Shown here in pieces: positions 6,320-64,000 of a stretch of DNA of 64,000 nucleotides. The notes below the pieces were generated by a model. That model was not told the DNA's origin and ran no database searches. It saw only the letters and a program-made list of their open reading frames with translations. This stretch comes from Symbiodinium sp. CCMP2592 (lineage: Eukaryota > Sar > Dinophyceae > Suessiales > Symbiodiniaceae), in NCBI GenBank assembly GCA_905221615.1, contig CAJNDT010006135.1:2325226-2389225 (forward strand). The letters run 5' to 3'. Made by a program: the position numbers and the translations under genes. The stretch's first letter is position 1. Each line of letters begins with the position of its first letter.

Positions 6320-6825
6320 TCACATACATACATGCATGCACACATGCATGCATACATACGTCCATGCATTCATACCTACATACACACATAGATGCATAAA
6401 TGCCTACATACACATGTGTATTCATTTGTGCAAACATGTATATTAGTTTTCTTTATTCAACTATATTTTCCTTTGCCTACCTATTCGCTGTGTACATTTC
6501 ATATGCATGTGTATTTGTACCTCTAACCAAGTACATATGTATAGTATGTGTATGTATGTATGTATGTATGTATGTATATACACATGTTGGCAGGTACACA
6601 TGTATATAAACCGATATGGCGCTATGATTGTATTCGTTTTTGTATGTATGTAGGTACGTACATGTGTAGATAGGTATGTATGTATGCATGTATGTATGTA
6701 TGTATGCATCAACGTAATGTGATGTATCGTACTGTAATGTGAGGCTTGCAACGAATGCATGTATGCACGCATGCATGTACGTATGCATGCATGCATGCAT
6801 GGATGTATGTACTTAGTACTTGTCA
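6320..6825. repeat. CATA/TATG microsatellite with strand inversion
   Basis: The left half is rich in CATACATGCATG words, the right half in GTATGTATGCATG words, so the region is a long imperfect palindrome. The His/Thr/Cys/Tyr-rich open frames on both strands come from the 4-bp period. Confidence 0.85.
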
Positions 6826-7363
6826 TTGTGAGTGCTGTGTTACAAGACAAGTTATACGCACTCAAACCTGAAGCTCGAAGCAGACAAAAAAAACATCCTG
6901 TATAGGGGCCAAAAATAGCATGTTGCATTGCTTGAGGCAGTATGTGTTTCATACAAACGAGGATCCCCAGGCAGCACATACTTAGCAATTGTTCAGGCTT
7001 CTACATCATGCACCTCAACCCTGAACCAGATACCCTCACCCCTCACAGAACGCTTAGAGGAACCCTTAAAGGATCCAGATACAACCCAAAACCGTCTATA
7101 CTCTGTGGACCCCAAACGGTTCTCCCCGCCCCCTTCGTGACAGTCCTCGGTCAGCGACATCCAGATCTTGGAGCGGGGATCTCACGTTTAGAGGCTACCC
7201 TAATTAAGGGTCCGTGTGAGCTTGAAGGTACATAGAGAGAGAGAGAGAGAGAGGGACTCGTATTAGTGGCGGCATGTTGTAACCCCGCACTAAACCCAAA
7301 CCCTAAAACCGACAGGGCTTCTTACAAACATCCGGCATCTGTGCATGAGTTTTCATCGGTTAC

Positions 7364-36197: not shown

Positions 36198-36220
36198 CTT
36201 GGAATCCTCGCTGTGTTATA
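36198..36220 (+). repeat. Left terminal inverted repeat
   Basis: Begins CTTGGAATCCTCGCTG. It is the exact reverse complement of 52487-52509 over 23 bases. Its first six bases, CTTGGA, are also how HP-A hairpins begin. Confidence 0.9.
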
Positions 36221-36847
36221 ATGATATAGGCCAGATAGGGTGGAGTATAAGTGTGTTACGAAAGGGTTATAAGTGCATGCTAAGTCTATACTAAGTATGT
36301 GTTAAGTCTGTATAATAATGGTTAAAAGATGTTATGTGTTATGTCATGTTAGTAATAAAATCAGTTTTTTAGCTAAGTCAAGTCAAGTCCGCTAACTAGT
36401 TATAGTTTTTTTAACTTTTTAGGTAAGGTTTTATGTATATGTTTTTCTATGTGTTGACATGTTTTTTTTATAGAGCTGTAATCCGTTTTTGGTCTAGTGG
36501 ACATGCTTTTGTGGCTAGCAGGAAAAGCTTTCTGTATAGATCCATTTCTGCATGCACACAAATTTTCGTAACGATTTTTGAAACGAACCTGGAGAGATTC
36601 TGTTGCAAGTCCAATTGCCAGGTTTGGCCATGAGCTTCGTAACCATGCCAAAACCACAGACCGAGTTTTTTTTTTGAAAGCCGGAAACCATGTTTGCTTG
36701 TAAGTGGTATATCGCCATGTGGCTGGAAAGTTGATATTCATACAGGAATGCAACATGAGTGTTGTGAGAATTCTGTGATACTTTCGTGAGGTTTCCAAAC
36801 CCAAGCCATCCAATTTGGCCTGCCCGTTTTCCCGCTCTGCAGTAGCC
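36221..36847. other. Left subterminal region of the element
   Basis: Contains TAAGT/ATAAGTGT-rich direct repeats (36245-36320), then GCTAACTAGTTAT and T-rich DNA. Two dyads, GCCAGGTTTGGC (36617) and GCCATGTGGC (36714), precede the first gene. No convincing ORF. Confidence 0.6.
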
Positions 36848-37390
36848 ATGGTCACCATTGACAGCCATGTCGTCGTGAAATACCAAAACGAGCCATTCGT
36901 CGCCATTCCCCAGTACTTGATTGTCGAAAGCTCCAGTGGCCAAAAGTTTCTGCAGATGCGAGCCTCCAGTTTGCCCATCGTGCAGCTGCTCACAGGGGCC
37001 AAAAATCCCAGCAGAGCCAGCTTGACCTTCTACGAGCCCTTCAAGAAGTTGCACGAAAGTCGCAACAAGGCCATGGATCGCTATGCCAACGGCGACGAGG
37101 ACCAGGGCGACGAGGCCAACCAACTCTTCGAAGACCAGGATGGGGAAGCCCAGCGGCAGCCCAGGCGTCACAAGATCCAAAACCTCCCAGAAACTATCAA
37201 CATCCACGTGGGGAACGCCATTATTCCATGCCTGCTCCCGGAAGATCGCCGCCGGCCCAAGGCTGCAGACCTGGCAGTGCCACTGGAGAGCAACACCATC
37301 GGTGCCATCATCGACCACGTTCGTGCCAAAGTTGAAGAATTGGAGGCCCACATGCAGCAGCCCAAGAAGAAGGCCAAGAAGAAGCAGTAA
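36848..37390 (+). CDS. Element gene 1, basic-tailed protein of unknown function
   Basis: 180 codons from the ATG in GCCATGG context (36848); an upstream in-frame ATG at 36815 is possible. It starts MVTIDSHVVVKYQNEPF. The middle is acidic (NGDEDQGDEANQLFEDQDGE) and the C-terminus is helical and strongly basic (PKKKAKKKQ), a likely nuclear localisation signal. The single exon is followed 190 bp later by gene 2. No family was recognised. Confidence 0.7.
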   Translation: MVTIDSHVVVKYQNEPFVAIPQYLIVESSSGQKFLQMRASSLPIVQLLTGAKNPSRASLTFYEPFKKLHESRNKAMDRYANGDEDQGDEANQLFEDQDGEAQRQPRRHKIQNLPETINIHVGNAIIPCLLPEDRRRPKAADLAVPLESNTIGAIIDHVRAKVEELEAHMQQPKKKAKKKQ

Positions 37391-37580
37391 TATAGGCTTC
37401 CGACCACTGCAGCTGCGACCCACCGCTTGGGATTGAAAAAAAAGCGCCTCTGCGACTAAGCCATGCATTATGGAGTAAGAGGGAAGCTTTGTCCAGATGT
37501 CAAGTTTCTATACCATGAGTTTGGGCCCAGACTGCCCAGTTTTGCTTTTGCCACTTTTGGCCAGCTCCAAGCTTCTTGCC

Positions 37581-39933
37581 ATGGCTGGTGTGCCAGAGAA
37601 GGTGGTCCAAGAAGTGGAAGCCATGATGTCCTCGACTGCTCCAGTGAATACGAAAGTGGACCAGATCGTCCAACTTCTAAGGACACATGGCCTTGCCCAC
37701 GACCAAGTTCTGACTCCAAGTCAGATCTTGGTACACCCAGAAAACCGAGGCAAGTCCATGGTGTCCTACTACGACGTCTGGTCCAAGGGCAGCCAGATGA
37801 CCAGTGTCGGCTTCCAGCCCAAGCTGCTCGACGGCCAGACCATCTGCACCCAAATGGCCACTGCCGAGACCAAGAGACTTGCCCAAGTGCAAGCCAACCG
37901 CCAACTGGTCTCTGAGGCCAAGGGCCATCTGGCACCAGTGAGTGGCCAGGAAGGCACCTGGCTCATGCATGCTTATAATGTTTTGAAAATTGTTTGGTGT
38001 TTATAGACCATTATATAAGCCCTGTGTAGATGTTTGGTTCCCTGCCGCTCAGGCTTCCTCTCCCTTGCAGGGAGCCACAGTGTTGCCTTTCTCCGATGCC
38101 TCCAGGCGGGCATCCAAGGACCAGAGGGCTATCACGTCGCCATTGCGAAGTCGGACCCAGCATGGCGAGCGATCGAGCAAGGATGGTGCTGGATCGTGCT
38201 GGCAGCATCCATTGAAGAAGCCATGCCACAACTTCCCAACTTTATTCAGCATGCTGCCAACTCGTCCAACTCAATATCCAAAGCCATCAACGAGTTGGAG
38301 GTTGCCCTCCATGTGGCCACTGCATTTGAGAAGGGCTTGAGCCTTCCAGATGCCATCCAGCAGGCCAGCCAAGGCGACGTGAGATGCCGTGCCAGTGTCC
38401 CCGCCATCGCCAAATTCGTCCAGAACTTCGGCGGCGGCAGCCAGGGGTTTCCACTCCTCCATTTCCTTGCCAATTTTGGGAAGCAGTTTAATGCCACACT
38501 TCTGGTGGGAACCGAGCTGATGTCCACCCTGGTGTCGCTAGATTTCAAGCAAGCGACGTGCATCTTTCCCATGCTTCGTGTGGCGGCATGGGCTACCATG
38601 TTGACCAGCCCAAAATCCCAAGACGGGTTCAGCCGCATCCTTTCCACCAACGATCTCCAAAAACTGAAGGCACCAGGCATGCTCGACCAAGTTACCCAAG
38701 CCGAAAACATGCTCCAAGAGGCTTGGAAGGTCCAACAGGATCTTCTTGTGGAGCAGACCCACCATGCGTCCCACTTAACCAAATGCTTTGGTCGATTTGC
38801 AGTCAGAGTTTGTTTGTTCCTCACGAACAAACAAAGGGCAGGCCGGGAAACCAAGCACTGGCAATCTCTCCAAGCCATCTTGACTGCCTACACCAAGGAG
38901 ATCCAAGACAGCTCGGCTGGCGATGCCATTGCGGACCACAGCATGACTCCAAACATGCAGGTGACTGATGTCTTGGCAGCCAGCAACAAAACCATTGCCA
39001 TGCTCCAAAACAACCACATGGAACTGGGCAAGTTGTTGCTTGGAGCGGAAGCTAGCAATTGGCCTATAGCCAGAATATCCTTGTAAGAGAATATATACAT
39101 AAGCATATAGGCAAGGAATATACAGATGTGGATAGATTCCTTGATGCCAAGTGCTGAGGTACACCACCAAGGACCACGGTGCCAAGGTGTTCAAGCTGAC
39201 GGATGTCACGGACGACCATGCCACCATGACTCACAAGCCACTCTTCCAAGATGAGGAAGAAGTCCATGTGCCATTGCAGAAGCTGCCAATGTGGAAGGCC
39301 ACCAAGGCCATGATGCCGATGTTGTGCCCCCAGGATCTTGCCAGGGAAGGAATGACGGCGAAGCTTCTGTTGGAGGAGCGGGCCAGGTCGGAGGTCCAGC
39401 TGGCTCTCCACAGAGCGGCGGAAAAGCACCATGTGGATGCCCAGACCATCGCTTTCGGCCAGAACCCGCAGGGGTTGTTTGCCATCAAGACAATTCGCAA
39501 AACCATTCGTTTGGTTCCACTGGGCACGGTGAACAAAGCCAAGTCGACCGCCAAGGAAACGAAGCTCCTCATCCAGCACGGCGGCCACAGCTGGACCATT
39601 GGGCCGTTCCGCCAGAATGCGCAGTTCGAAGCAGACAGTGCGTTTTGCTTGATTCCATATTTCTGGTGCAAGCCCACGAGCGAAACCTCCGAGGTCACCA
39701 TGGTTCACTCCACGGTCGTCGAGTCTGGGATTACCATCCCATGCTTGGAGAATCCTGCTCCGCTGGAACAGCACCAGCCGCTTTTGTTCCTGGCGGCCCA
39801 TGCCGAAGCTTCCGAAGCAGACCACGGCGAGCCAGAGCCATCAGAGGCCGAGCCTAAAGCCAAAGCCAAGGCCAAGGCCAAGGCCAAGGCCAAAGAGCAG
39901 TCTGAGCCTCCTTCCAAGAGGGCCAAGAAGTGA
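37581..39933 (+). CDS. Element gene 2, three-exon protein with Lys-Ala tail
   Basis: Exon 1 (37581-about 37953) starts MAGVPEKVVQEVEAMM after a GCCATGG start and contains KSMVSYYDVWSKGSQMTSVG. Exon 2 (38071-about 39056) follows a pyrimidine-rich TTGCAG acceptor and is helical (HSVAFLRCLQAGIQGPEGYH; VRVCLFLTNKQRAGRE). Using a GC donor at 37954 keeps the frame. Exon 3 (about 39152-39933) contains VFKLTDVTDDHATMTH and FCLIPYFWCKPTSETSEVTM. It ends with EPKAKAKAKAKAKAK and PPSKRAKK, a histone-tail-like basic run and NLS. The exon 2/3 junction is unresolved (intron about 39057-39151). I recall similar VFKLTDVT...PYFWC proteins as a large unannotated dinoflagellate family. Function unknown; nuclear location inferred. 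Confidence 0.68.
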
Positions 39934-39985
39934 AGAGCTTTTGCAGCCCCAAGGGAGCGGGCTCCACTTTAAAGACCCAAAGACC

Positions 39986-40650
39986 ATGGCGGGTTTTGAA
40001 GCCAGCCGCCAGAGTTTTGCTGGAGAAGAAAGGTTCGCAAAGGTGTTTCCCGAAAGGGCAGGGGTGCATTCTTGCATGCATGTGCCATGTGGCTTTTCCA
40101 TGAATGGACAGCATGCATGAATTGTGCGATGTTTGGTATAATTCTTCTTCGTCCATGCACAGCAGCTGTTTGCCAGACAAGGCCAGAGGCTGTCCACAGC
40201 AATCCATCATGGAGCTTGCACCTGCAGCCGCCCCTGAGCCAGCCATGCGAAACTCCAGGCTGCCAGCGGTTTGCCAACTTGGGCCAAACCAAATGCTGCA
40301 GGAAGTGCAGCCAAGGTGGCAGCCATTCCAGCAGATGCTCGGCCAGGCAGGACCACTTTGCGGGCAAAAGGACCAGCGGCACCACCGGCATAACCGGCAC
40401 TCCTCTCCGCTTGAACCCAAAGTGGGTGCCCATGTGGTTCGGTGCCAGCCTCCGGGTGCGGACCTTTCTCCTCCATGCCCACGAGACCATGGAGGAGTTC
40501 CAAGTGTCCATGGAGCCATCCACAGCATCCACGTCCTTCCAAAACTGGCTTCGAGCTCAATTGGTGGCTGTGCATGAAGCCACCCATGGTGACCAAGGCT
40601 CCAATGCTGATCTCACCAGAATAATCAAAGAGCTTCTGCACCAGCCATGA
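39986..40650 (+). CDS. Element gene 3, small Cys-rich zinc-motif protein
   Basis: Two exons proposed. 39986-40063 starts MAGFEASRQSFAGEER at ACCATGG. 40228-40650 follows a CCTGCAG acceptor. The phase is consistent and the product is about 166 aa. Exon 2 carries CETPGCQRFANLGQTKCCRK then CSQGGSHSSRC, a C-x4-C-x8-CC-x2-C...H-x3-C pattern of the zinc-binding kind. The C-terminus is helical (LTRIIKELLHQP). The GC-rich second exon is open in other frames too, but only this one has the metal-ligand pattern. Confidence 0.6.
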
Positions 40651-40689
40651 GCATGCCTGGACGGTGTGAAAACATGTGCTTGCAGGCAT

Positions 40690-41330
<641 letters not shown>

Positions 41331-41529
41331 GAGACACTCAACGAGACCTTGCATGAGATTCTTGAATGGTCTGCGGATGCTGCAGCCATTCTTGCCAAGT
41401 GTTGGCCTGCCCCATAGTGCTCCCAAGCCACCAGCCCTCCAAGATGGCCCCGAAGGCCGGTGCAGGGTCTCCATTTGGGTCCTGCTTTAGATATCTAAAG
41501 GGCTCATAACGACCCTGCAGGCACAAGCC

Positions 41530-41901
41530 ATGAAGCCCCAGCAGGACTCCAAGGCCACGGTCTCCAAGCAGAACATGAAGAAGCCGGCCGCCAGCAAGAC
41601 CACGGAGAAGCCAGTTTTGCCAGCCGGCAGCAAGACCACGGTGGAGCCAGAGGCCATGGACCCCATGGAGGACACTTTGGGCATGACCAAGGCCCAGCTG
41701 CAGGCCATGTTTGGCCCAGGCTTCGAGCCAAACTTCGAGGAGCCAATTGGGGGCCATTTGGCACTCCATTGCTCCAAACCAGGCTGCAGCAGCTGGGTGT
41801 GGTGCCACAAATTGTACCAGCGGAAGGTTTGCGTGCAATGCGGGCAAGTCTGGCTTCGGTCGTTTGTCGACCATGGATGCCGGCTCCAATGGCATGACTG
41901 A
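41530..41901 (+). CDS. Element gene 4, zinc-ribbon-like protein
   Basis: 123 codons from an ATG in AAGCCATGAAG. The N-terminus is Lys/Ala/Thr-rich and disordered (MKKPAASKTTEKPVLPA). The C-terminal part reads LHCSKPGCSSWVWCHK then KVCVQCGQVW, two Cys pairs forming a ribbon-like motif that gene 5 shares. Another ATG at about 41444 opens a short MAPKAGAGSPFGSCF frame and could be an upstream exon. Confidence 0.6.
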   Translation: MKPQQDSKATVSKQNMKKPAASKTTEKPVLPAGSKTTVEPEAMDPMEDTLGMTKAQLQAMFGPGFEPNFEEPIGGHLALHCSKPGCSSWVWCHKLYQRKVCVQCGQVWLRSFVDHGCRLQWHD

Positions 41902-41963
41902 CCACTTGGACCATGATGGCTTGGTGGAGTGAAAAAGAGAAGTTGCAAGCCTTTATTTGTCAA

Positions 41964-42310
41964 AAGGCCCGTAGCCTATATGTCACCCCTTAAGCCTCCA
42001 AGCCTATCTCGGCCCAAGGCTCCAAGCATACAGGGTTTCGCCTTTGATGGCTCGTTATTTCGCTAGGAGCACATGACATGTTTCTAGATGTCAATATATA
42101 TATATATATATATATATATCTATAGGATATATACATATATGTGGTCAGAAGGCCCGTATCCTAGATGTCATCCCACAAAGCCTCCAAGCCTATCTAGGAC
42201 CAAGGCTCCAGGTTTCCAGAGTCCCTGCTATAGTTTCGCCTTTCATGGCTCGCTTTTTCGGTAGGTGCACTTTACATGTTTCTATATATGTCTTGCTATA
42301 TATATATGTA
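41964..42310. repeat. Direct duplication of about 150 bp in the gene 4/5 spacer
   Basis: AAGGCCCGTAGCC (41964) and AAGGCCCGTATCC (42149) begin two copies. Both continue through GCCTCCAAGCCTATCT, AAGGCTCCA, TTTCGCCTTT and ATGGCTCG, then end in a TA microsatellite. Confidence 0.82.
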
Positions 42311-42536
42311 TATATATAAAGACATGTAGGTATTTCTTTATATAAACAACTAATTTTCCTACAGATTTTGATATATAGAGAATTATGTATATATACTGGC
42401 AAAGCTGTAGACACAAAGTATGTCTAGTCACAAACACAGTTTAGAATTGTTGATCCTGCCACTGTGCTGCAGCCTTTCGTGCTCCAGCACACTTTTGCCA
42501 TCCACGGCCAGCTTTGCTTTTGCATTTTGCACCATA

Positions 42537-43350
42537 ATGTCCGGTGCCGCTCCCAAAAGCAATGCCAAGGCAGCCATGCCCACGGCAGCCTCCACAGCCT
42601 CCACGGAGGCAGCGGTCCCCACGGCAGCTCCAGCCAAGGCCCCTCCGGCCAAGGCCCCTCCGGTGCTTGGGCCATGGGTGGCACCCATGCCAAATCCAGC
42701 GGTTGCACCATTGGTGCTTGCAAGGCCATTGGTGCCAGCCAACCAGGTGACGGCCCTCACCATGGCCTGCGGGTGGTACGTCCCACCCACTGCGGTTGTC
42801 CAGAACCCAACTGCACACCATGCCACGGCGAGGTTCACCAACCAGCGGCCCAACTTCAACTATCCAGAGCCCACCCACTGGATCTGGGTGGAGTGCACCA
42901 GGTGCCAGGCGGCCATGGTGTCACTCCGTGACATCCACCAGGCCAGATCCTGCATCCGCTGTGGCCACTCTTGGTTCCAGTCCATTTTTGGTGGGCTGCG
43001 GATCTATGAGCCACGGCAGGACCAGGGCCACTTCGACCAGGACGACACGACGAGGACCAGGAGGGCCAGGATCCATGGGCTGCAGAAGGCGAGGGCCAAA
43101 CGGACCACGAGAGCGACCATGATGACGAGGCCTTTCCGTCTCCAAATTGGCCAGACTGGGCAGTCATGGATTTTCTGAATGCCCTGCAGGAGGACGAGCC
43201 CCAGAACCAGCAGCCCATGGAGCAGCCCACGGAGGAGCCCACGGAGGAGGCCACGGAGGAGCCCACGGACGAGCCCACGGAGTCCCAAGACCATGCAGGA
43301 CCATCGCATAGCAGCATGTTCTGCTTGCCTTTGTTGTGTGACCTGGCATG
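42537..43350 (+). CDS. Element gene 5, zinc-ribbon paralogue of gene 4 with a frameshift
   Basis: Starts MSGAAPKSNAKAAMPTAAST and runs through a Pro/Ala-rich stretch to WVECTRCQAAMV and RSCIRCGHSW, the same Cys-pair plus C-G-x2-W pattern as gene 4. Up to about 43045 the frame ends in acidic YEPRQDQGHFDQDD. From there the acidic, protein-like reading continues in another frame (EDQEGQDPWAAEGEGQTD, then FPSPNWPDWAVMDFLNALQE) and ends in a PTEEPTEEATEEPTDEPT repeat. There is no room for an intron, so a one-base indel near 43040-43065 is likely. It could be real or a sequencing error. Confidence 0.58.
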
Positions 43351-43499
43351 CAGGACCAGCGGCCTAAAGGCACCATGCATGGTCTTCCATGGAGCGAGCG
43401 GCCAGGGCACCATGGATCTTCCATTGCATCTTCCATGCGATGACAAAAAATTCGCAAAGGATCTCAGGTTTCGATGCTTGGAGATATATTATAGATAGA

Positions 43500-44400
43500 A
43501 ATCTATTGAAGTTAAGGTATATAGGGTTTAAATATATAATATATAATGGGGTTTATAAGTATAGGGGTTTATAGGGTTTCTATAGGGTTGAGTGCTTATA
43601 GGGTTTAATAGGGTTTATATAGGGCTGTGTCTTTCTATCTCTAGACATGTAGATATTCATTTTGGGATTATTATAGTCTTTAAGTTTGTATAGGGTTTAG
43701 GGTTTGGAGGTTTTAAGTCTTTTTTTAGGTATTAAGGTTTCAAGACATACAGAGACATTGTTTCAGCTGTCCGGGAACATAGGGATTCAAAGTTTCAGTG
43801 TAGATCTACATGTATATATACATCCACAGGATATATATATATATATATATATATGTATCATTTTTTATACAGACAGATATATATATATATATATATACAG
43901 ACTCAGATATATATATATATATATATATATATTCTAGTGTATATATACTGCTACTTATACAGATTTGTTGCCAGAATGGCCAGTATACCCATTGCCAGTG
44001 TGGCCAGCATGTTCATATTGTTTTACATTTATATGTAGCCACAGCCATCATGGCCAGCTTCTTTAGATTTCTCATCCACACATTGAAAGACAGCCATCGT
44101 GGCCAGTTTTTGTTTTATATGGATATAGCCAGCATGGCCAGCAAACTCCAACACCAGTCCCAGCAACCAGTGCAGCACCATAAGCAATGTGAAACCCAGC
44201 AGCCCTATAGTGCAGGCATCTCCTGTCCGAGTGCCAGTGTGAGCTGGTAGCAGACCCCAGTCGCAGGCACATGTGCATCACATAATGTTGTAATCCGAGC
44301 CCGTTCTCTCCAGCGGTTCAGTCGAGTCGCAAGCACCAAACAAGCCTCACCCAGACCATGCGAGCAGACTGAGTAGATGGAAACTTACAAGCAGTGTTCA
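43500..44400. other. Spacer with TATAGGGTTT words, TA microsatellites and five dyads
   Basis: GGGTTTATAGGG-type words at 43520-43720; TA runs at 43829-43852, 43877-43898 and 43907-43932. GCCA-N3-TGGC dyads at 43970, 43994, 44044, 44093 and 44128. No ORF is convincing. Confidence 0.65.
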
Positions 44401-44585
44401 ACAAACAATGGTTGCATTCAGGATTGCATCAACAATCCTAAGTACAAGAGTTTTGCACTTAGGATTGCAATTACAATCCTAAGTGCAGAATTTCTGCACT
44501 TAGGATTGCAATTACAATCCTAAGTGCAAAATTTCTGCACTTAGGATTGCAATTACAATCCTAAGTGTACTAAGCCATTGTTTGG
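44401..44585. repeat. Tandem array of 34-bp palindromes
   Basis: Three near-identical palindromes (TGCACTTAGGATTGCAATTA and its mirror) at 44454-44487, 44495-44528 and 44536-44569, spaced exactly 41 bp, with a degenerate fourth at about 44413-44446. The set is bracketed by CAAACAATGG (44402) and CCATTGTTTGG (44575), itself an inverted repeat. It ends 30 bp before the start of gene 6. Confidence 0.93.
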
Positions 44586-44616
44586 CGTTTTCCATTTCTC
44601 CACGTGGCCCGCAGCA

Positions 44617-46313
44617 ATGGATGATGGCGACAGGACTGTGGTGCCGACGACACCGAGTCCAGAGTACGATCCCCACAGCCCTGCGATGAGTGAGGTCTCC
44701 CATGAGACAGTGGTGCCGGAGAGGTCCACAGCCAAGGCACGGACCCAGGTCTTCGCATGGCCGACACCACCAGATTGGGTGAACCTACAGGCTGCTGCCC
44801 AACAAGCAGCGGTGCTGGGCCGAATGGGACCAGTGCTGGGACAGTTTGGGCCGACAGCACCACTGGTGCCTCCAACACCACCCTTGGTGCCTCCAACAGC
44901 ACCATTGCTGGCTCCGACAGCACCATTGGTGCCTCCGACAGCACCATTCCTGACTCCTCCAAGAGCAGCATGGCTGCCTTCAGTTGGACCAATGGTGCCC
45001 CCAGTGGCACCATGCCTGCCTTCAGCAGCACCACTGCTGCAACCGATGGTGCCTCCAGCGGCAGCATTTCCTCCAGCTGAATGGGTCCATGGTTGGCAGC
45101 CAGAGGCAACCACACACAGCATGGAGGTAACATTCGGAGGCAGGGGACCCAGTCAGCCACAACAACCCCCAGCAGAGGCCGCAGCAAGACCAGCACAGCA
45201 GGCAGCACCACCAACAGAACAACAAGGCCCTGAGGCCCAAGGGAAGGAACAGCAACAACCACCATCCCAAGCAGCCGGGCCAACAACACAGCAGCAGCCA
45301 CGGCAGCAGCCACCCACAGCAGAGCAACAGCCACAGCAGCAGCAACCTCCCTGGCGGCGACAACAAGCACCACAGCCAGCACCACCAAAGTCAGCAGCGG
45401 AAGCGGCGAGGCCACCAAAGGAACCAGCAAAGTCAGCAACGGAAGCGGCGAGGCCACCAATGGAACCCACTCGACCAGTGGGCCCAATCAGCAAAGCCAA
45501 CGTTATGAAGGGCAAAGGCAAAGGCAAAGAATCCAACATCCCGGCCGCATTCCGAAAGCAAGCATTGGGCCACACACCCATGGTCGTTCCGCCACCGAAG
45601 CAAACACCAGAGCCGGCCACCTCCTCCCACGACCCATGGGCTTTCCAAGGACCGCCGCCCAAGCTGCAGCCACGAGAACCAGACTACCCACCACCTGGAT
45701 TCGGGCCAAAGCAAGTGGGAAAAGAACCACCAAAGGCCAGGCGACCCACTGCTGCTGCACCAGCCGGTGCCATGCCAGATGTGCCACACCGACACACAGG
45801 CTGGAAACACAAAGCATGTTGGCTGTTGACCAGATACAGCCAAGAAGATTGGAGAGGGGTCCAGGAGCTGTGCAGCAGCTTCCAAAAGGAGCTCCATGAC
45901 CACGAACCAGTGCTGTGGCTGGACGGGAAACCAACGTGGGCCAGGAAGGTCCAATGGTTCATTGACCATTGGACCCAGGGCGACTATGCTCGCTGCCACA
46001 GACTCTACCAGTGGCACCATGGACCTGATTGTTTAGGTTTTCCAGAAACCATATAGTTCCGAATCTTTTCTAAAGCATTGCTGAGATAAATATGGATCGG
46101 AAAGCCATAAATAAGCTAAGCCCCAGATAAGCTTTCTTTGAAAGGAGTTTGAAACAATAGTCCAAGTTCGTTTTTTTCGACCGACACAACCGCTGTCCAT
46201 TAAGGTTCAGCACGGAGTCCCAGATGGCCCAGTACTTGGCTGAGCATGCCATGGTGGTGGAGGAGCACGGCCATGACCCACTGCAGCCAGACCGCTTCAG
46301 GCAGCACCAGTAA
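44617..46313 (+). CDS. Element gene 6, Pro/Gln-rich protein with conserved C-terminal helices
   Basis: Starts MDDGDRTVVPTTPSPEYD at 44617. The first 300 residues are low-complexity (PTAPLVPPTAPLLAPTAP; later Q-rich PQQQQPPW), with a short KGKGKGKE basic patch. The last part is ordered (KHKACWLLTRYSQEDWRG; LDGKPTWARKVQWFIDHW). The frame meets a stop at 46054. An intron at about 46014-46204 with a GC donor joins YQW to FSTESQMAQYLAEHAMVV and a TAA at 46311, giving a better C-terminus. No family was recognised. It may be a DNA- or partner-binding cargo protein. Confidence 0.62.
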
Positions 46314-46349
46314 AACACCAGAGGTCCGTGCATGCACCATGTCCATGTC

Positions 46350-46430
46350 ATGTATTCGCCAGTTTTGTGGCCAGCACACTTCGCCATTTTTTGTGGCCAG
46401 CACAGTTCGCCATTTTTGTGGCCAGCACAG
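46350..46430. repeat. Three 25-bp tandem repeats carrying GCCA...TGGC dyads
   Basis: TTCGCCAGTTTTGTGGCC, TTCGCCATTTTTTGTGGCC and TTCGCCATTTTTGTGGCC, each followed by AGCACA, at 46356, 46381 and 46407. Confidence 0.85.
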
Positions 46431-46439
46431 TAACTATAC

Positions 46440-46913
46440 AGAAAGAATCAAACTTATTGGTTGTTTTTGTTTTCTTGCTCTCTCTATATATATGTATAAA
46501 TATATATATATATATATACACACACATATATGTTTATATCTATCTATATATATATATATATGTGTTTCTTGTTTCTGTGTATAGGCTGCATACATGTATA
46601 TGTGTCTATATGTACGTATGTGTGTGTGTATATATACACATACATACATATATTTGTTTCATTATACACACCTATATATCCAGTTACATACAATCACTGT
46701 GCTTATATATATATATATATATATAAGCAAACGTATAGATGGTGATAAAGCCACATGGCTAGCCACTGGGTTTTTTCCTTTCCATATAGAGTCTTCTACA
46801 TAATATATAATTACTTAGATATCTATATATATATATATATGTGTATCTGTCTGTTTATCTACATATGTACATATTTATACATACATACATTCATTTAATT
46901 GAAGTATATAACT

Positions 46914-46944
<31 letters not shown>

Positions 46945-47270
46945 TCTTTCTGTTGGCTAGCCAAGAAAGCTGGATACTGTATATGTTTGACATGGTATCT
47001 GTACATGGGTGTGTGTGTGTCTTTTCTTCTTCATCTAAACTCTCACGAACTTCATGTTGTTTTGGCAGAAATCCAGACAACTTTGGCTTGCATGATGTCT
47101 CCTTCCAGAATCAACAATCGCTGTGTTCTATATTCTGTACTGTTTTCTGTTGTTGTCCATACATAAAGAGACACAGACATATATTTTATGTGTATATACA
47201 TATATAGATATGCATATCTGTCTTTACATATACATGTCTTCTGTGTGTCCTAATGTATCTATAGGATGTG
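46440..47270. other. TA/CATA microsatellite-rich spacer
   Basis: TA runs at 46497, 46546, 46706-46726, 46823 and 46914-46942. No gene. The Tyr/Ile-rich open frames follow the repeats. Confidence 0.75.
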
Positions 47271-47376
47271 CCTTTCAACGTGCCGCTATAGATTGCTTGA
47301 GATGTGCTTTCTCTGCCATCCTCGCAGCCACCTTGGCCTGCTTCCCAATTTGTTTTAGGACCACACTTGTGCCGCC

Positions 47377-49014
47377 ATGTCCCAAGTGTGGAGCATTTCT
47401 GACTTTTTGTCTGAACTTCGCCATCTGGGCCAGCTCACTAAGTTGCGGCCAGGGAGCCTGGTCGTCACTACCATGGCGACCACATTCGTGGAAAGGATCC
47501 GTGCGGCCAAGAATTGGACATCGGCAGGCATCATCCAATTGATCGGTGAAGTCCAAAGCATGGAGCTGCCAGATGCCATAAAGGAGAGCATCCAGGAGGC
47601 CGTTGAGACATGCCAGACCAACGAAGCCTCCCACATCAAGCTCTCCAGTTGCGGCCAGAAGATAGCCCATGTGCCAGCATACTTGACCACGGCGGATTGG
47701 CAGGCTCTCGAATCTGCCGTATCCAAGGATGACCAGATGTCTGTCATGGCCAAAAGGCTCCGAGCAATGGGCCTTACCTCCCTGAAGGAGAACACGGTGC
47801 ACCAGGTGCTCGCCACCCTGCTCTACGTCAACCACAGCCGAGGCCAACCACAGATGCAGCCGAGTGCCATACATTCCATGGTAGACGACTTCCAGGCCAT
47901 ATTCCACGGCACGGCCAAGATTGAGGCTGTGCCCAAACTGGCCACTTACTCGGAGGATCCTCTCCAGAATGGCGAGGCCTGGCTGAGCCAAGCATACACG
48001 AATGGCTGCAGTCCAGCCAAGAAGGTGCTTCCTCTGCATGCTTGGTACAGGAAGGTGCCCATGAGGAAGAACCATCATTTGCTGGTTGGCTATCATGTGC
48101 CGGCGGAGTCCAAGAAGGCACATGGAAGCCATGACCATCTGGCCAAAGCTGCCCAGATGCTTTCCCAATTGGCAGAACGGTGGGCTTCACCACCTGCAGA
48201 GCCAGAGATTAAATTCTTGCAGCCTCGCCAGGACCGGCTGGCTCTGCAGAACCTGCCAACACCGCAGCAGCAACCATCGCAGCTTGCACTTCTGCCGGTG
48301 CAGAACGAGCAGAACCAAGCGGTGCAGCAGCAGCCGCTGCAGCAGCAGCAGCCGCTGCAGCAGCAGCAGCCGTTGCAGCAGCCAGTGCAGCTGCAGCAGC
48401 CCTCGCAGCAGCCACTGCAACTGCAGCAGCCCTCGCCCCAGCCACTGCAGCTGCAGCAGCCGTCGCAGCAAACAGCACTGCAGCAGACTTCTGCTACGGC
48501 CCATGATGAGGCGGGCAGCCAAGCAGCAGTGCCGCCGGATCCCATGCTCGCCACAGCCGAGCCAGACATGTGTACGGAGAAGCCCTGCAATTCCAAGCCA
48601 AAGACTTTGCAGGAGTTTGAGGACCAGCACTTCGAGGAACTCAGGAAGAGGAAGCTTGAGGCCAAAGAGAAGGCCGTGCCAAAGGCAAAAGCCAAAGCGA
48701 AGGCCAAAGCCAAGGCCAAGGCCAAGGCCAATCCCAAGGCTAAGGCCAATCCCAAGGCTAAGGCCAATCCCAAGGCTAAGGCCAAGGCCAAGGCCACCCC
48801 CAAGGCAAAGGCGAACCAAGCGAAGCCAGTGGCCAAGAACCAGGACCACCTGCCGCCGCACAAGCGGGATCCACCGATTTTCGGGTGCCCCAAATGCCGA
48901 GGGAATCCAAGCGGTTGTGGGCAGTGCCTGAGCCCAACGTACACAGGCCTGCGGCTCCCAGGCCGAGAAGCCTATCGGGCCCATATGGCCCGAAAGGCCA
49001 GGATGGCCAAGTGA
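47377..49014 (+). CDS. Element gene 7, Gln-rich protein with KA repeats and C-terminal Cys motif
   Basis: 545 codons from GCCGCCATGT. Residues 1-270 are ordered and mostly helical (MSQVWSISDFLSELRHLGQL; TMATTFVERIRAAKNW; YRKVPMRKNHHLLVGYHVP). Residues about 285-365 are Gln/Leu/Pro-rich. Residues about 425-485 are Lys-Ala repeats with NPKAKANPKAK units. The end holds FGCPKCRGNPSGCGQCL then RLPGREAYRAHMARKA, a C-x2-C-x6-C-x2-C zinc-type motif. The Lys-Ala tract is shared in style with gene 2. A GCCACCTTGGC dyad lies 40 bp upstream. Probably nuclear and nucleic-acid-associated; function unknown. Confidence 0.72.
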   Translation: MSQVWSISDFLSELRHLGQLTKLRPGSLVVTTMATTFVERIRAAKNWTSAGIIQLIGEVQSMELPDAIKESIQEAVETCQTNEASHIKLSSCGQKIAHVPAYLTTADWQALESAVSKDDQMSVMAKRLRAMGLTSLKENTVHQVLATLLYVNHSRGQPQMQPSAIHSMVDDFQAIFHGTAKIEAVPKLATYSEDPLQNGEAWLSQAYTNGCSPAKKVLPLHAWYRKVPMRKNHHLLVGYHVPAESKKAHGSHDHLAKAAQMLSQLAERWASPPAEPEIKFLQPRQDRLALQNLPTPQQQPSQLALLPVQNEQNQAVQQQPLQQQQPLQQQQPLQQPVQLQQPSQQPLQLQQPSPQPLQLQQPSQQTALQQTSATAHDEAGSQAAVPPDPMLATAEPDMCTEKPCNSKPKTLQEFEDQHFEELRKRKLEAKEKAVPKAKAKAKAKAKAKAKANPKAKANPKAKANPKAKAKAKATPKAKANQAKPVAKNQDHLPPHKRDPPIFGCPKCRGNPSGCGQCLSPTYTGLRLPGREAYRAHMARKARMAK

Positions 49015-49151
49015 GCTCCAGGGCCATGGCGGGGAGACCTCCCGTGTCACCATAATTGGCCATTTTGGCTGACCAGATCCGTTGGCTTAACCACGGGCCT
49101 TGCATTGGGGCAAAAGTTTCTCGCAAGTTGTTTGCTTTGCATGCAATGCTC

Positions 49152-49154
<3 letters not shown>

Positions 49155-49212
<58 letters not shown>
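49155..49212. repeat. (TC)n microsatellite followed by (CA)n and (TA)n
   Basis: Pure TC run, then ACACACAC and TATATATA to 49255. The minus-strand Glu-Arg open frames are artefacts. Confidence 0.95.
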
Positions 49213-49213
<1 letters not shown>

Positions 49214-49259
49214 ACAGACACACACACACACACACACGTATATATATATATATAGAGAA

Positions 49260-49985
49260 ATGGTGTATACAATGGTTTATGTCGCATATATAATAAGGTT
49301 CTATTTCTCCAATTACTTTCGCTTTTCATTCAATAACTGAAAAATATATGCCTATATACATGCAATAAATATACATATTTATATGTATATATATATACAT
49401 ATGTATATATAGTCTTATTTGCATATATATATATATATATACTTTTATATCTATACATATATATATATATATATATATTTTTCATGTGCGAGCATGAATT
49501 TGACGTCTGTGGACGGTCAATTTCTTCTTGTAGCTGGAATATATGTATTTCTCTTGAGGTATGATACTGCAAGAATCATATATTCCTGACAAAGGGCCTC
49601 TATATGGCATGCAGGGTTTCTTTTTGGCGACATAGCAATCGGTGAGTGCCCTTTCCATTTCTGTCCTGCCATCTCTGAGAATGCATGACTTCTGTCCGTG
49701 AAGCTTGTTGCTCCAAACAAGAAGTACCAGCAGAGGCAATGCATGCAGGACTAGTTTGAACATGGTGCCCCGAGCTCCCCTCTGCAAAACCGTGCATATA
49801 TATATATATATATATATATGCTTGTCGATGGAACGTTTCCCGTTGATTACGTGCAGACCAGATGGATGCAGACAGCTCAGATACATCGAAATATCTTAAA
49901 GTATGTGTTTACATATATATATATATATAAGAAGTTCGGATCCATCATTTGTAAACCAAGTAGGCACTGTCCGAAGCCCTGGGTG
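49260..49985. other. Spacer upstream of the transposase gene
   Basis: TA runs near 49395, 49418, 49455, 49799-49820 and 49910-49929. A minus-strand frame at 49482-49886 is open and partly protein-like, but it crosses a TA repeat and I do not call it. Confidence 0.6.
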
Positions 49986-49988
49986 ACC

Positions 49989-52073
49989 ATGGAGCCTTCC
50001 AAAAAGAAAGCCAAACTTCAACACCTTCTGACGTTCAAGGCCAGCCTGCCAGGCCATTCCCAAAGTGCTTTGGCGGGCTTCGTCAAAGCAGCCAAAGAGC
50101 AGGGCCTCCCGGAAGCCAGTTCTTCCAACGACCAGCGAAAGGCACGGCAACAGCTTCTTGAAAGCTGTGATGGCGGCCCCCTGGGACCATTGATCCAGCA
50201 GGCAGAACTGCCCATGAGCGACGGTGCCACAGTGACCATCCATTTTGCCAACCTTCTGGTCTTTATCACCAGTCTTTTCGCCATGGGGGGCAGTTTCCAT
50301 GATCTGCTCCAAAGGAAGCATGCGGCCAAACCCTCGTCGCTGGACCAGCCCTGGTCCTTGATCTTGTATTGCGACGAGGTGATCCCTGGCAATGTTCTTG
50401 GTCGTGCTGAACGCAAGCTATGGGCCATTTACGCCACATTCCTCCAGCTAGGCCAAGAAGCCATGGGCCACGAAGACATGTGGCTGACCATCAGCCTAGA
50501 AAGATCCACCTTCGTGGCCCAATTGCCAGGTGGCATCGGCCAGGTGTTCGCCAAGATTCTGGAAGCCATCTTTTGCTGCCCCATGGCTGAACCATGTGGA
50601 GGCCTGCTCTTGAAAAGTCCACATGGGCCCATGGGCAACATCCGCCTCCATTTCAATTGGGGTATATGCCTCGCTGATGGGGCTGCCCAGAAGCAGATCT
50701 GGTCTTCCAAAGGCGAAGCTGGTACCCGATTTTGCATGTTATGCGCAAACATCCACTCAGCAGCCACCATGGCTGCAGGCCAGGATGCCATTGACCATGC
50801 GACGACCAAATACCACCAACTGCGCTTGACAACTGACACTGAGGTCATCCAGTCCTACCATCGTTTGGACCAACGGCAGCAAACATGCACCAAGGCGGAT
50901 TTCCAGCACTGGCAGCAGGCCGCAGGGTGGACGTGGAATGCCCATGCCCTCCTCTTGAACCAGCCGCTGTTGTCCAGAGGCCACATTCGACCAGTGAGCC
51001 AGTTTTGCCACGATTGGATGCATGGGATCTTGCAAGGCACTGGCCCTGTCGTCCTCTTCCAGACAATGGAGACCATTGGCATGGCAATGGGTTTCAATGC
51101 TTGGGATTCCATGGAAAAGTACATCCAGCTCTGGTCCTGTCCAGGGGCTTCCAAAGCAGGGCACCTGAAAGCTTTGTTTTCCTCCAGGATGGTGAGCAAA
51201 CACCAGGCAAGTTATAAGTTTTCCTGCCAGGCCAGCGACCTCTTGAGTATATTCCCCATTGTGCGGCATTATCTCCACACCATGGTTATGCCGGTGGGCG
51301 GCTGCCCCATTAAGGCCTGCGAGGCATTCTTGGCCCATGCAGACCTGCTCGACCAGGTGCACCAAGGAACCATGTATGGGGCCACTACCAGGGCAAGCCT
51401 ACTACCAGCTGCTGAGTTGGCCATCCAGAGTTTCGTGGAAGCCAACTTCGGAGTTTCCTTAATAAAGAAGTGGCACTGGCTTCTGCACCTGCCTGATTTC
51501 TTGGAGAGGTATGGGATGTTGCCAAGCGCTTTCACCACTGAGCGCAAGCACAAAACCATTGCCAAGTATGCCACCAACTTGCAGAAGACCACGGCTTTCG
51601 AAAGCCATTTGATGCAGCAGGTCGTGGCCATGGAGATCACCACTTTGAAGGAGCCAGGTCTGCACCCGGACACCTGCCAGCTGCTGAAGCCAAAGAAAGC
51701 TACCAAGCAGCAAGTCCAAGTCCTCCGCGACTTCGTGGATGGCCCATTGAACGAAGCCATGGTTGCTTCGAGTGCGAAGCTTGCCAAAGGTGGCACCATT
51801 CATGCCCACGATGTGGTTGTCTTCCAGCAGCAAGACGGACGTTGGGAAGTCGGCCAAGTTTGGTTCCACTTGGAAGTGGGTGCTCAACAGGTCACACTTC
51901 TCCAGCGGTGGACTCCCACGGTGAACAAAGCATCCCACTCTGCGAAATGCACCATCGCGAACGAGCAAGGCTTCGTTCCCATCGACTCCATCCAGTACCC
52001 ACTGCTGTATAGTAAAGCCTCAGACCAAGAGGCCACGGTGCTCATCCCGTACCAGCTCAACTGCAGGCTGTAA
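49989..52073 (+). CDS. Element gene 8, DDE-type transposase candidate
   Basis: 694 codons from ACCATGG at 49989. The frame is open further upstream but only through a TA repeat. Candidate catalytic residues: Asp129 in LILYCDEVIPGN, Asp230 in ICLADGAAQKQIW and Glu518 in AFTTERKHKTIAKY. Between them are a Cys pair (FCMLCAN, 249-252), HDWMHGILQG (341-350) and KKWHWLLHLPDFLERYG (493-509). The size and the D...D...insertion...E layout fit large eukaryotic DDE transposases of the CACTA/Plavaka/KDZ kind. The exact superfamily is unproven. I recall related CDEV-PGN proteins as multicopy in dinoflagellates. The N-terminus has a basic KKKAK patch. It is the last gene before the right inverted repeat, a typical place for the mobility gene. 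Confidence 0.65.
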   Translation: MEPSKKKAKLQHLLTFKASLPGHSQSALAGFVKAAKEQGLPEASSSNDQRKARQQLLESCDGGPLGPLIQQAELPMSDGATVTIHFANLLVFITSLFAMGGSFHDLLQRKHAAKPSSLDQPWSLILYCDEVIPGNVLGRAERKLWAIYATFLQLGQEAMGHEDMWLTISLERSTFVAQLPGGIGQVFAKILEAIFCCPMAEPCGGLLLKSPHGPMGNIRLHFNWGICLADGAAQKQIWSSKGEAGTRFCMLCANIHSAATMAAGQDAIDHATTKYHQLRLTTDTEVIQSYHRLDQRQQTCTKADFQHWQQAAGWTWNAHALLLNQPLLSRGHIRPVSQFCHDWMHGILQGTGPVVLFQTMETIGMAMGFNAWDSMEKYIQLWSCPGASKAGHLKALFSSRMVSKHQASYKFSCQASDLLSIFPIVRHYLHTMVMPVGGCPIKACEAFLAHADLLDQVHQGTMYGATTRASLLPAAELAIQSFVEANFGVSLIKKWHWLLHLPDFLERYGMLPSAFTTERKHKTIAKYATNLQKTTAFESHLMQQVVAMEITTLKEPGLHPDTCQLLKPKKATKQQVQVLRDFVDGPLNEAMVASSAKLAKGGTIHAHDVVVFQQQDGRWEVGQVWFHLEVGAQQVTLLQRWTPTVNKASHSAKCTIANEQGFVPIDSIQYPLLYSKASDQEATVLIPYQLNCRL

Positions 52074-52486
52074 AACATCCATGCTTCACCTATTCAGTGC
52101 AGGTTTGGGTTTCGCCCTGATCATCGTGCCTACCTAGAGATTTGGACTTCCAAAGGGGGGTTTAGGGTTCGTTTTCATGCATGGTTTCTATAAGCTTTCA
52201 GCTGATGCCTTTCTCATTCTTGTTTTAAAAGGCCCTGTTGCTCACAAGATATCCATGACACCGCCTATATATGGCCAGCTACATATGACATATAACCCAT
52301 GTGAAAGCCTATATGGCCAGCCGATTTCCACATAGCTCCCATACTTCATGGCTGTTCCATCCCATACATTTAGTGTAAGTCTTTGCCACGAAAGCCACAC
52401 CCAAAAACAGAGTTATAACTAGTTAGCTAACTCCACCTAACTAGTTATAAAAAATTACTTAACTCATGTTAACCAAGATAACTAGC
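52074..52486. other. Right subterminal region of the element
   Basis: Contains TATATGGCCAGC twice (52263, 52311), inverted ATAACTAGTTAGC (52415) and a direct TAACTAGTTATA (52439). No ORF. Confidence 0.6.
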
Positions 52487-52509
52487 TATAACACAGCGAG
52501 GATTCCAAG
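52487..52509 (-). repeat. Right terminal inverted repeat
   Basis: Ends GCGAGGATTCCAAG, the exact complement of the left end. Confidence 0.9.
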
Positions 52510-57639: not shown

Positions 57640-60600
57640 TGCCATCGCCCCCCCAGCCGAGTGTTGCCCATCCGACCACCGCGTGTCTGCGGCCGCCCCG
57701 CCTGGAGGAGGGTGCTTTGCCGCAGCTCTTCCAGCGACTTCTCAAGCCGCACCAGCCTGAAAGCCAAACACTGGTTTGTGACGAGATATCTATGCCCAAA
57801 CATCCATGTCTACAGTACCTATCTATCTCTCCATCCTCTCTATCCCGCATGATCTCCGTCTATCGATCGATCTATCTGCCTATACATGCATACATGCATG
57901 CATAATTACATACATACATGCATGCAGGCAGACAGAGACGGACGGACGGACAGACAGAAAGACAGGCATGCGTGCAGATCTTTAGACCGGAACGGTAGGT
58001 CTCTACGTACTGCGGAAGAGGACTGAAAGTGACTGGGACTGCCAGCTTAAAGACATACTGTACTACATCATTGCCCTACCTAAAACCGTCATAAGCCCTA
58101 AAACCCAATAAACCCTAAACCGCACGCAAAGCTTTGCACGCACACACACACACACACACACCTCTCGGCCATGTCTTCCACCATCTGCGCTTGCTCCGCT
58201 TCACCGGAGATGCCGTATTGCTTGCTTGTCGGTGCACACCACCAAAGGTAGCTACGACTGCAGACATCTTCGTTAGTCCATGGCCGCTCCAGCAGCAGTC
58301 CGTTGAACCTGGGACGTGTTTCTGCATGGCAAAAGGATATTTGTGTTCCTAGTCTGCATGGTCCCGAAATGCTCGGCTCGATTACTACAAGAATTACTCC
58401 CATCACCTTCTGGCCTTCCAATTTAGAGTCTCCTCTCTTGTCCCGATAATTTAAAAGTCCGCAATTCTACACGGTCCAGCTCGTGCGTTCGGGTTCGGGC
58501 TGCCTGGCATTGGGCTTTGAAAAACGAAATCTGGATGTAGTTTAAGAAAAACCATCATACGGGCCAAGAAGAACTAACGAAGAAAGCACTGGAAGGGGGG
58601 CTGAGGATCCGGCAGGTAGAAAGCCAAGGAGAGCAGCACTGCAGGAATGATGGCAGGACAATCTTCAATAAGAATACATAGAACCCATCCTCCGAATGCC
58701 AGAAAGGCCAAAACGAAGTAGCCCAGCTGCCACCATTTCCTCTGGTGGCCGCAGCACATGGGTAACCGTAGCTGCACCATGCAGTGCACACAAATGGAAG
58801 CCCTTTCCTGGAGGAATAGGTTGGTGGCATGCATGTGGGCTTCGGAGTATGCCCTTCCATGTACAGCAATAAATAAATTCAGCAAACTAATACAGAAGAT
58901 GATCACCGCAACCATCAAGCTGGCCAGCGTGATGTAGTCCCCGTTGCCAGCCTCATCACCACGGTTGCCAAGCTTCAAGACTTGCACGATGCCATCGCCA
59001 TCCACCATGAAAAGCAGCTTCACCGTTCCCACAAGAATTTTATAAGGGCCTTGGAGACCCCAAAGTGGCAGATTCAGCGTGCGGGGGGACAGTTATGTGA
59101 AGCCGAGGTGCCTTCGAGACCGTTGTCCAGGATCATGAAGGCATGCCAGAATCCGGCAAAAACGAAGCCACCTTTTCTGGTTGTCTTCAAGATAACATGT
59201 AAAGGCCCATCTGACCCATTTCCTATGCCTACACTCCTCAACAGCTCCCCCTGAACAGCCAATGTGGGAGTGCTCCTTGCTTGCAGCGGAGTTGCAGATG
59301 ATCCCCATGCCCCCTATCTTCTTGACAGAGTGCAGAATGGGAATAATTCCTTTTACGCCAATCATGCCCAGCTTGAAAGCACGCAGTGCGAAAAGCATCT
59401 GGAACCAGCGAACAAAGACCAACAGGGCAAAAAGCTCCTCCTCTGCATCCAAGTTGAACTGGCCAGAATACAAAGCCTGTCCAACCACCACATTGAAGAT
59501 GGAGATAACCGCGACATCCACGTAGTTGCCTCCATTGCCAAAATAAGACCCAGGGTTCTGAAGCTGGATGCAGTAGCCGTAGGCTTGGAAGGCTTCTATG
59601 TAGGTATCTCGAACAGCGCTTTCAAACATGAAGGTCCAGGAGATGCGGCGCTGCCAGTAAGGGACCTCAGGTGCCACCAAGAACTCTGTCTTAACACCCT
59701 CGCAGTCCTTGGGTTTGTTTTTTTTCATGGGGCCTGCTTGTTGTTGAAGTCCTGAGACTTGGAGTAGGTCCATGCAGACAGCACGATCAATTCCAGAAGC
59801 CGGTGCAGCAGCTGGAGTAAGTACCATTTCAACACGAAGGCATCCCAACAGTATGTCAAGGTTGCAGTGACGGCGGGATTTCTGAAAATCTCGACATACT
59901 TGGTCTCACTGAGTGCCTGCAACACCTCGGGGCAAACAATGCCTTTCAATCGCAGTTGCCGCATGTGCACTGGCTGCAAGTCGCGCGAGTCCACAAACTT
60001 TGGCTGGTTCGTCCGAGGGTTCGGTTGGCGCATCACAAACTTCGAGATGCGATTGGAAGGGGCGTGGGAAATCCGCCGTCCCTTCCGCACGGCGCGGGCG
60101 CCAGGGGCCAGGCGGTCATGCCAAGCGGGCCACGCCTTGGCCCTGTCACCGGTTTCAGTGTCGCATTTCCAGCTGTCGTCCGTGTTGTAGTCTGCCCTGA
60201 GCTCCTGCAGAGTTTCACGAGAACAAAAACCCACGCGAAGGAGCTCGGAGCTCTGAACTAGGTTACCGGTTACCGCACGGCTTATGCTCGGTCCTTGAGG
60301 ATGGCCTGGTTGGGCAATGGATGGTAGTAGACGCTGTCCTCGTCAGGCTCCACGGTCAGGATTTCCAGCAGATAGTCTGCGGCATCTGGGGTGTTGTCCA
60401 GAAGCGCTATCCAGTGCTCGACCGTCAGGTTTTCCTCCGTCTGCAGCTCATCTGCGACGTTGGTCTTGTGCGCCACTTGGTCCGCCGACTCTGCACCAGC
60501 GTAGTCGCACAAAAGATTCCGAATGAACTCCGTTGTGGCACTGGGGCAGTGCTCGGATACGATCATGATGTCGCCAATGCGAAATCTCGCCAGAAGATGA

Positions 60601-63722: not shown

Positions 63723-63822
63723 NNNNNNNNNNNNNNNNNNNNNNNNNNNNNNNNNNNNNNNNNNNNNNNNNNNNNNNNNNNNNNNNNNNNNNNNNNNNNN
63801 NNNNNNNNNNNNNNNNNNNNNN
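63723..63822. other. Assembly gap of 100 N
   Basis: Exactly 100 N, the conventional placeholder for a gap of unknown size. Confidence 0.99.
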
Positions 63823-64000
63823 ACCTTTTATCAGCGTCCTCTATGGGTTCTCTACAATTGTCGACTATGGGGGATCGGTTCTATAAGGGCTTCAGGGTTA
63901 AGGGCTTGAAGGTCCATGTGCCTGTAAAGTATATGCTAAGGGAATAAAGTTCCTAAATGGGACCCCGTTTACAGACATAAGCTAGGTTCGTGAGTAGCCC
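63823..64000. repeat. Duplicate of 28873-29050
   Basis: The whole post-gap stretch to the window edge is identical, base for base, to an internal segment 34,950 bp upstream. Confidence 0.97.

Follow-up and report, generated by a model that had tools for sequence, protein, structure and literature searches.

What is the 16.3-kb interval (positions 36198-52509) lying between two perfect inverted repeats in the dinoflagellate Symbiodinium sp. CCMP2592, and do its genes belong to a mobile element or to the host? The window analysed here is a stretch of 64,000 nucleotides within a contig of 2,876,568 bp from this strain, which is named S. tridacnidorum in the available part of PMC8045281. We interpret the interval as a CMCT-type DNA transposon of a Symbiodiniaceae dinoflagellate, moving by cut and paste, with a transposase of predicted RAG1/Transib fold plus BAH fold and with genes 1-7 as accessory genes, and assign this reading a probability of roughly 0.72. 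The view that it is mobile and encodes the transposase that moves it, as the initial annotation had proposed, is well supported by the RAG1/Transib fold and CMCT motifs of that enzyme, by gene-2 proteins that are near-identical between three contigs, and by a recurring gene order. The RAG1-like enzyme, with its chromatin-binding domain, appears to travel along with about six companion genes. The features that define the unit are:

36198-36220, plus strand: left terminal inverted repeat, 23 bp, exact match to the right end
36393-36402, no strand: left subterminal palindrome TAACTAGTTA, from a position scan of the window
49989-52073, plus strand: gene 8, transposase of 694 aa with a RAG1-like core and a C-terminal BAH fold, from open frame, alignment and predicted fold
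52416-52447, no strand: pair of right subterminal palindromes TAACTAGTTA (52416 and 52438), from the same scan
52487-52509, minus strand: right terminal inverted repeat, 23 bp, exact match to the left end

Element ends

The two 23-bp repeats are exact and 16.3 kb apart, as first described, and with up to 3 mismatches allowed they are the sole matches to this sequence within the window; their number expected by chance was 0.00 (100 shuffles). A complexity-filtered scan of the window gave 229 exact inverted pairs of at least 17 nt, and among the 200 longest only four reach to the right of 35.5 kb, with lengths of 23 (the element ends), 19, 18 and 17 nt. In the one copy examined, the tips read CTTGG..CCAAG. 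The motif CACAGCG within the repeat, which we take to resemble the heptamer of recombination signal sequences, faces outward from the unit; it was dropped as a coincidence and not used.

The additional 13-bp match reported inside each end is present (36391 and 52415), but its inverted orientation carries little weight, since its core TAACTAGTTA is palindromic. This palindrome has just three occurrences in the whole window, at 36393, 52416 and 52438. Subterminal repeats of CACTA/EnSpm elements are bound by an accessory protein; the three palindromes of the present unit cluster at its ends and are putative protein-binding sites.

On the left, a gene-poor desert of degenerate TTTAGGG/CCCTAAA and dispersed repeats extends from about 2000 to 36197 and stops exactly at the element's tip. 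The left flank has 325 self-matches, and a single table-11 open reading frame (ORF) of at least 150 aa (6461-6988) was found between 2 and 36 kb. TTTAGGG-like motifs are common across most of 0-36 kb and rare past the left tip, save for six GGGTTTA at 42-44 kb, which bears out the compositional break noted earlier at this flank.

The transposase

The last gene of the set, gene 8, whose frame can be followed without a stop from an ATG further upstream (49818), has 50 relatives in the protein search, with Symbiodinium and Effrenium voratum as the named organisms. The D-D-E character ascribed to it is upheld by the transposase alignment, where the conserved residues, counted over non-gap rows, are D129 (33/33), D230 (33/33), C249 (33/33), C252 (32/33), H345 (33/33), H496 (31/32), H500 (31/31) and E518 (31/31). 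The protein thus combines D-D-E with C(2)C and H(3-4)H motifs, the protein signature of the CMCT clade. In the predicted structure, the best fold match of the core was RAG1/Transib, at an identity of about 10%, and the C-terminus was recognised as a BAH fold. The catalytic core is accordingly modelled as RAG1-like, a fold perhaps common to lineages that lack a solved structure.

Sequence comparisons with known structures gave no such match: a profile search of the PDB (E ≤ 10) returned no RAG1 chain for the transposase, and PDB sequence searches gave matches at chance level, with best E values of 0.68, 0.059 and 0.42. Pattern scans aimed at relatives of the transposase found 8 candidates in viral_contigs and 11 in genome_contigs, and 0 of them were confirmed.

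Companion genes and their order in relatives

The genes preceding the transposase, in the numbering of the initial annotation, are:

36848-37390, plus strand: gene 1, 180 aa, Lys-rich tail, no recognised domain, single terminal stop; relatives P0069 (68% identity), P0071 (34%) and P0072 (35%)
37581-39933, plus strand: gene 2, 709 aa, Lys-Ala tail, three exons (37581-37953, 38053-39034, 39159-39933), from a splice check and nine relatives
40257-41929, plus strand: gene 3, which may be one gene or two, with approximate exon limits; 40257-40647 is matched by P0065 and P0066, and 41503-41929 by P0066 as well
42537-43309, plus strand: gene 5, model approximate, ATG at 42537, two CxxC pairs; P0051 maps to 42684-43309 at 88-93%
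44617-46271, plus strand: gene 6, rich in Pro and Gln, gene model uncertain; 100% identity to P0051 over 45946-46014 and 46206-46271
47377-49014, plus strand: gene 7, 545 aa with a Gln-rich central part, a Lys-Ala tail and a terminal CxxC...CxxC motif, single terminal stop; 14 relatives

When 17 mapped relatives were aligned to the window with tblastn, every match fell on the plus strand, in agreement with the earlier observation that all convincing genes share one strand. The count of eight is not clear: relatives back about seven gene units, with 40.26-41.93 kb taken as one. Gene 2 has one GC-AG and one GT-AG intron, with a spliced product of 709 residues. The model of gene 6 is unsure because P0051 covers 44715-45047 in a frame different from the long open frame of the window. 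By eye the CxxC pairs of gene 5 are zinc-ribbon-like; Pfam Zn_ribbon_4 matched under cutoff (E 0.52).

No recognised domain was found for genes 1-7 in Pfam searches, for which ten translated frames were scanned at E ≤ 1; nine of these came from the element and part were unspliced, so that weak domains may be hidden. The zinc-like motif GCxKCRxxxxGCxxC closes gene 7 (48820-48975) and occurs again in P0062, a CCMP2592 protein of weak kinship (E 5.5e-4); judged by these sequences, it is possibly a common dinoflagellate module.

Three CCMP2592 proteins are near-identical to gene 2, exon by exon: P0065 (124/124, 327/327 and 184/185 residues), P0066 (124/124, 327/327 and 157/157) and P0067 (326/327 and 253/255). 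They sit on contigs of 658,378, 242,083 and 719,333 bp, respectively, and these three different sizes indicate several copies or contigs of gene 2, one of which may correspond to the locus of the window itself as represented in a different assembly. The Effrenium relatives P0068-P0070 share 85-96% identity with gene 2 per exon; transfer between Symbiodinium and Effrenium is no more than a possibility.

Several relatives are fused across gene boundaries. Gene-1 and gene-2 relatives are joined in P0069 (Effrenium), P0071 (Symbiodinium) and P0072 (Effrenium), with gene-1 parts at 68%, 34% and 35% and, for P0071, gene-2 exons at 46%, 41% and 38%. In P0008, a gene-7 relative (34%) is joined to a transposase relative (63-67%). 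P0066 covers gene 2 and continues into gene 3, P0051 extends from gene 5 via gene 6 to gene 7, and both are CCMP2592 proteins on a contig of 242,083 bp, strong but indirect evidence that they share one contig. The fusions are probably gene-caller joins, and since such joins need same-strand neighbours, they place the genes next to each other on one strand. Since gene 1 stays next to gene 2, and gene 7 next to gene 8, in relatives down to 34% identity, genes 1-7 are more plausibly accessory proteins belonging to the element than proteins captured from the host, and 'cargo', the label they had been given at first, suits them less well.

Assessment of the alternatives

A number of results weigh against a transposon of the CMCT kind with accessory genes. 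At this copy, neither end shows a target-site duplication of 2-10 bp, CA..TG termini are not present, and the right flank is GC-richer than, and unlike, the left. A search of the viral_contigs collection for the 23-bp end gave no second copy with such ends, and the fused gene models show adjacency, not terminal repeats. For the transposase, Pfam gave no RAG1 or Transib family (33 members, E ≤ 0.1) and no EnSpm or Plavaka family, and the roughly 10% identity to RAG1 is a likeness at fold level, so that any kinship inside the clade is tentative. Structure prediction for genes 1-2 gave a mean predicted local distance difference test score of 35.8 (nine sequences), no usable fold; none is claimed, and their accessory role is therefore something we infer.

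The alternative that survives best accepts a real element and supposes that the left end of one copy has been joined to the right end of another, by assembly or by recombination between copies, leaving mismatched flanks. We consider this a serious possibility, somewhat short of an even chance. It would account for the missing duplication together with the unlike flanks, of which the left is a desert rich in TTTAGGG and the right a different sequence of higher GC content. Near-identical repeat copies, which do exist here, invite such events. The scaffold itself contains a 100-N gap (63723-63822), right after which 63823-64000 repeats 28873-29050 over 178 bases at 100% identity in the same orientation; this restart inside the left desert shows a duplication, or redundant contigs set in tandem, close by. 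Against it, the ends match exactly with the gene set between them free of a visible break, and some DNA transposons make no duplication, e.g. Spy elements, going by a title in a reference list. Accordingly, the flanks of this copy of the transposon may be the product of rearrangement or misjoining.

An unlikely alternative is that genes 1-7 are host genes picked up as passengers by a simpler RAG1-like transposon. Known CACTA elements usually have 1-2 ORFs, as an excerpt of PMC6431247 puts it, genes 1-7 are without a recognised domain, and the transposase has 50 relatives vs 14 for gene 7 and 9 for gene 2. Recent capture predicts something other than the adjacency of gene 1 with gene 2 and of gene 7 with gene 8 kept at 34-67% identity, and captured host cargo was set aside as the principal explanation on account of this gene order in diverged relatives.

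It is very improbable that there is no element at all and that an ordinary one-strand gene array, of the kind normal in dinoflagellates (PMC11071213, in the part available), happens to lie between chance repeats. The lack of a duplication would fit such an array; an exact 23-bp repeat expected 0.00 times, a last gene encoding a RAG1-fold transposase, and TAACTAGTTA palindromes confined to the ends would not. Least probable of all is a Polinton/Maverick-like or viral element, which shares the size class (typically 15-25 kb) and terminal inverted repeats (PMC6431247, excerpt) and for which Maverick annotations in Breviolum minutum provide a precedent (PMC11071213, excerpt), but whose polymerase B, capsid and retroviral-type integrase families were all absent from the ten translated frames at E ≤ 1, while the catalytic protein is RAG1-like and no relative was found in viral_contigs.

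Classification and possible mechanism

RAG1/Transib elements have CAC-type ends and a 5-bp duplication, neither of which was found at the ends of this transposon. Elements of the Transib/RAG1/ProtoRAG type (BbRAGL, TransibSU) nevertheless provide the best predicted fold match and share the D-D-E, C(2)C and H(3-4)H motifs; they differ in the identity of about 10%, the missing sequence-profile match, and the chromatin-reader fold, here fused to the element's own transposase. In the part of PMC4411706 available, RAG1L travels with the Kelch-PHD protein RAG2L, and the partner of RAG1 has a PHD finger; the present transposase is likewise accompanied by partner proteins, although no RAG2-like gene was recognised in the element.

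The available part of PMC12730594 describes the CMCT clade as having CA..TG termini in most cases and target-site duplications of 2-5 bp, CACTA/EnSpm as having CAC..GTG termini and a 3-bp duplication, and Plavaka and other fungal CMCT lineages as having TGT..ACA or CATCA..TGATG termini and 2-3 bp duplications. The CACTA-type termini and 3-bp duplication are both absent from the element's ends. Because the protein signature is that of the clade, and the termini and duplication of this copy are not, we call the enzyme CMCT-type and place the element in no named superfamily. Some fungal lineages encode an extra chromatin-modifying enzyme, a TET/JBP dioxygenase (PMC12730594, same part); the element shares their catalytic and Cys/His motifs, and in Pfam it matched neither a TET/JBP nor a Plavaka family.

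Neither the large size nor the presence of several genes is wholly without precedent, since in the red alga Chondrus crispus enlarged families of the En/Spm (CACTA) type are reported to reach 16-20 kb with 4-5 ORFs instead of 1-2 (PMC6431247, excerpt). These are CMCT-type and of the same size class; compared by description, CACTA termini and a short duplication are expected there and not found here, and the present element has about seven genes and a BAH fold in its transposase. By title, none of the literature matches listed deals with a dinoflagellate DNA transposon of many genes or with a transposase that bears a BAH domain; PMC4352252, one of nine papers that mention BAH domain, transposase and transposon, concerns methyltransferases in the part available. 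As far as these matches show, what is new is the occurrence in dinoflagellates, a transposase with a BAH fold, and an accessory gene set that is conserved.

In the proposed mechanism, the transposase would pair both 23-bp ends, perhaps with the product of gene 1, gene 2 or gene 7 bound at TAACTAGTTA, nick and then cut them by a RAG1-like D-D-E reaction, and reinsert the entire 16.3-kb unit, while the BAH domain would dock the complex onto a chromatin mark and so steer the insertion site. For the link to chromatin suggested earlier, the BAH fold predicted in the transposase itself is one clue; counter-silencing by genes 1-7 has no domain support. Tentatively, and with more doubt than confidence, the element may represent a distinct dinoflagellate superfamily, in which a RAG1-fold transposase with built-in BAH domain works as a multi-subunit complex with conserved partners, one that Symbiodinium and Effrenium share or have exchanged and that is adapted to the unusual dinoflagellate chromatin.

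The antibody-gene recombinase is transposon-derived and guided by a chromatin-reading partner. An algal RAG1-fold enzyme with a chromatin-reader fold in one chain would, if true, represent an independent route to chromatin guidance. A many-gene, apparently recently active element would further help account for how strongly the genomes of Symbiodiniaceae have diverged, and many proteins labelled at present just 'unnamed protein product' would gain a context.

Further observations in the window

Searches of the whole window with Rfam (gathering threshold) and ARAGORN returned nothing. The window starts with nested tandem repeats (1-1660), comprising a 108-nt family that steps mostly by 9 nt and families of 165 and 300 nt. 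In the right flank, 59096-59905 on the minus strand gives a weak ion-transport match (PF00520, E 0.0039, under the Pfam cutoff) and is a possible channel gene.
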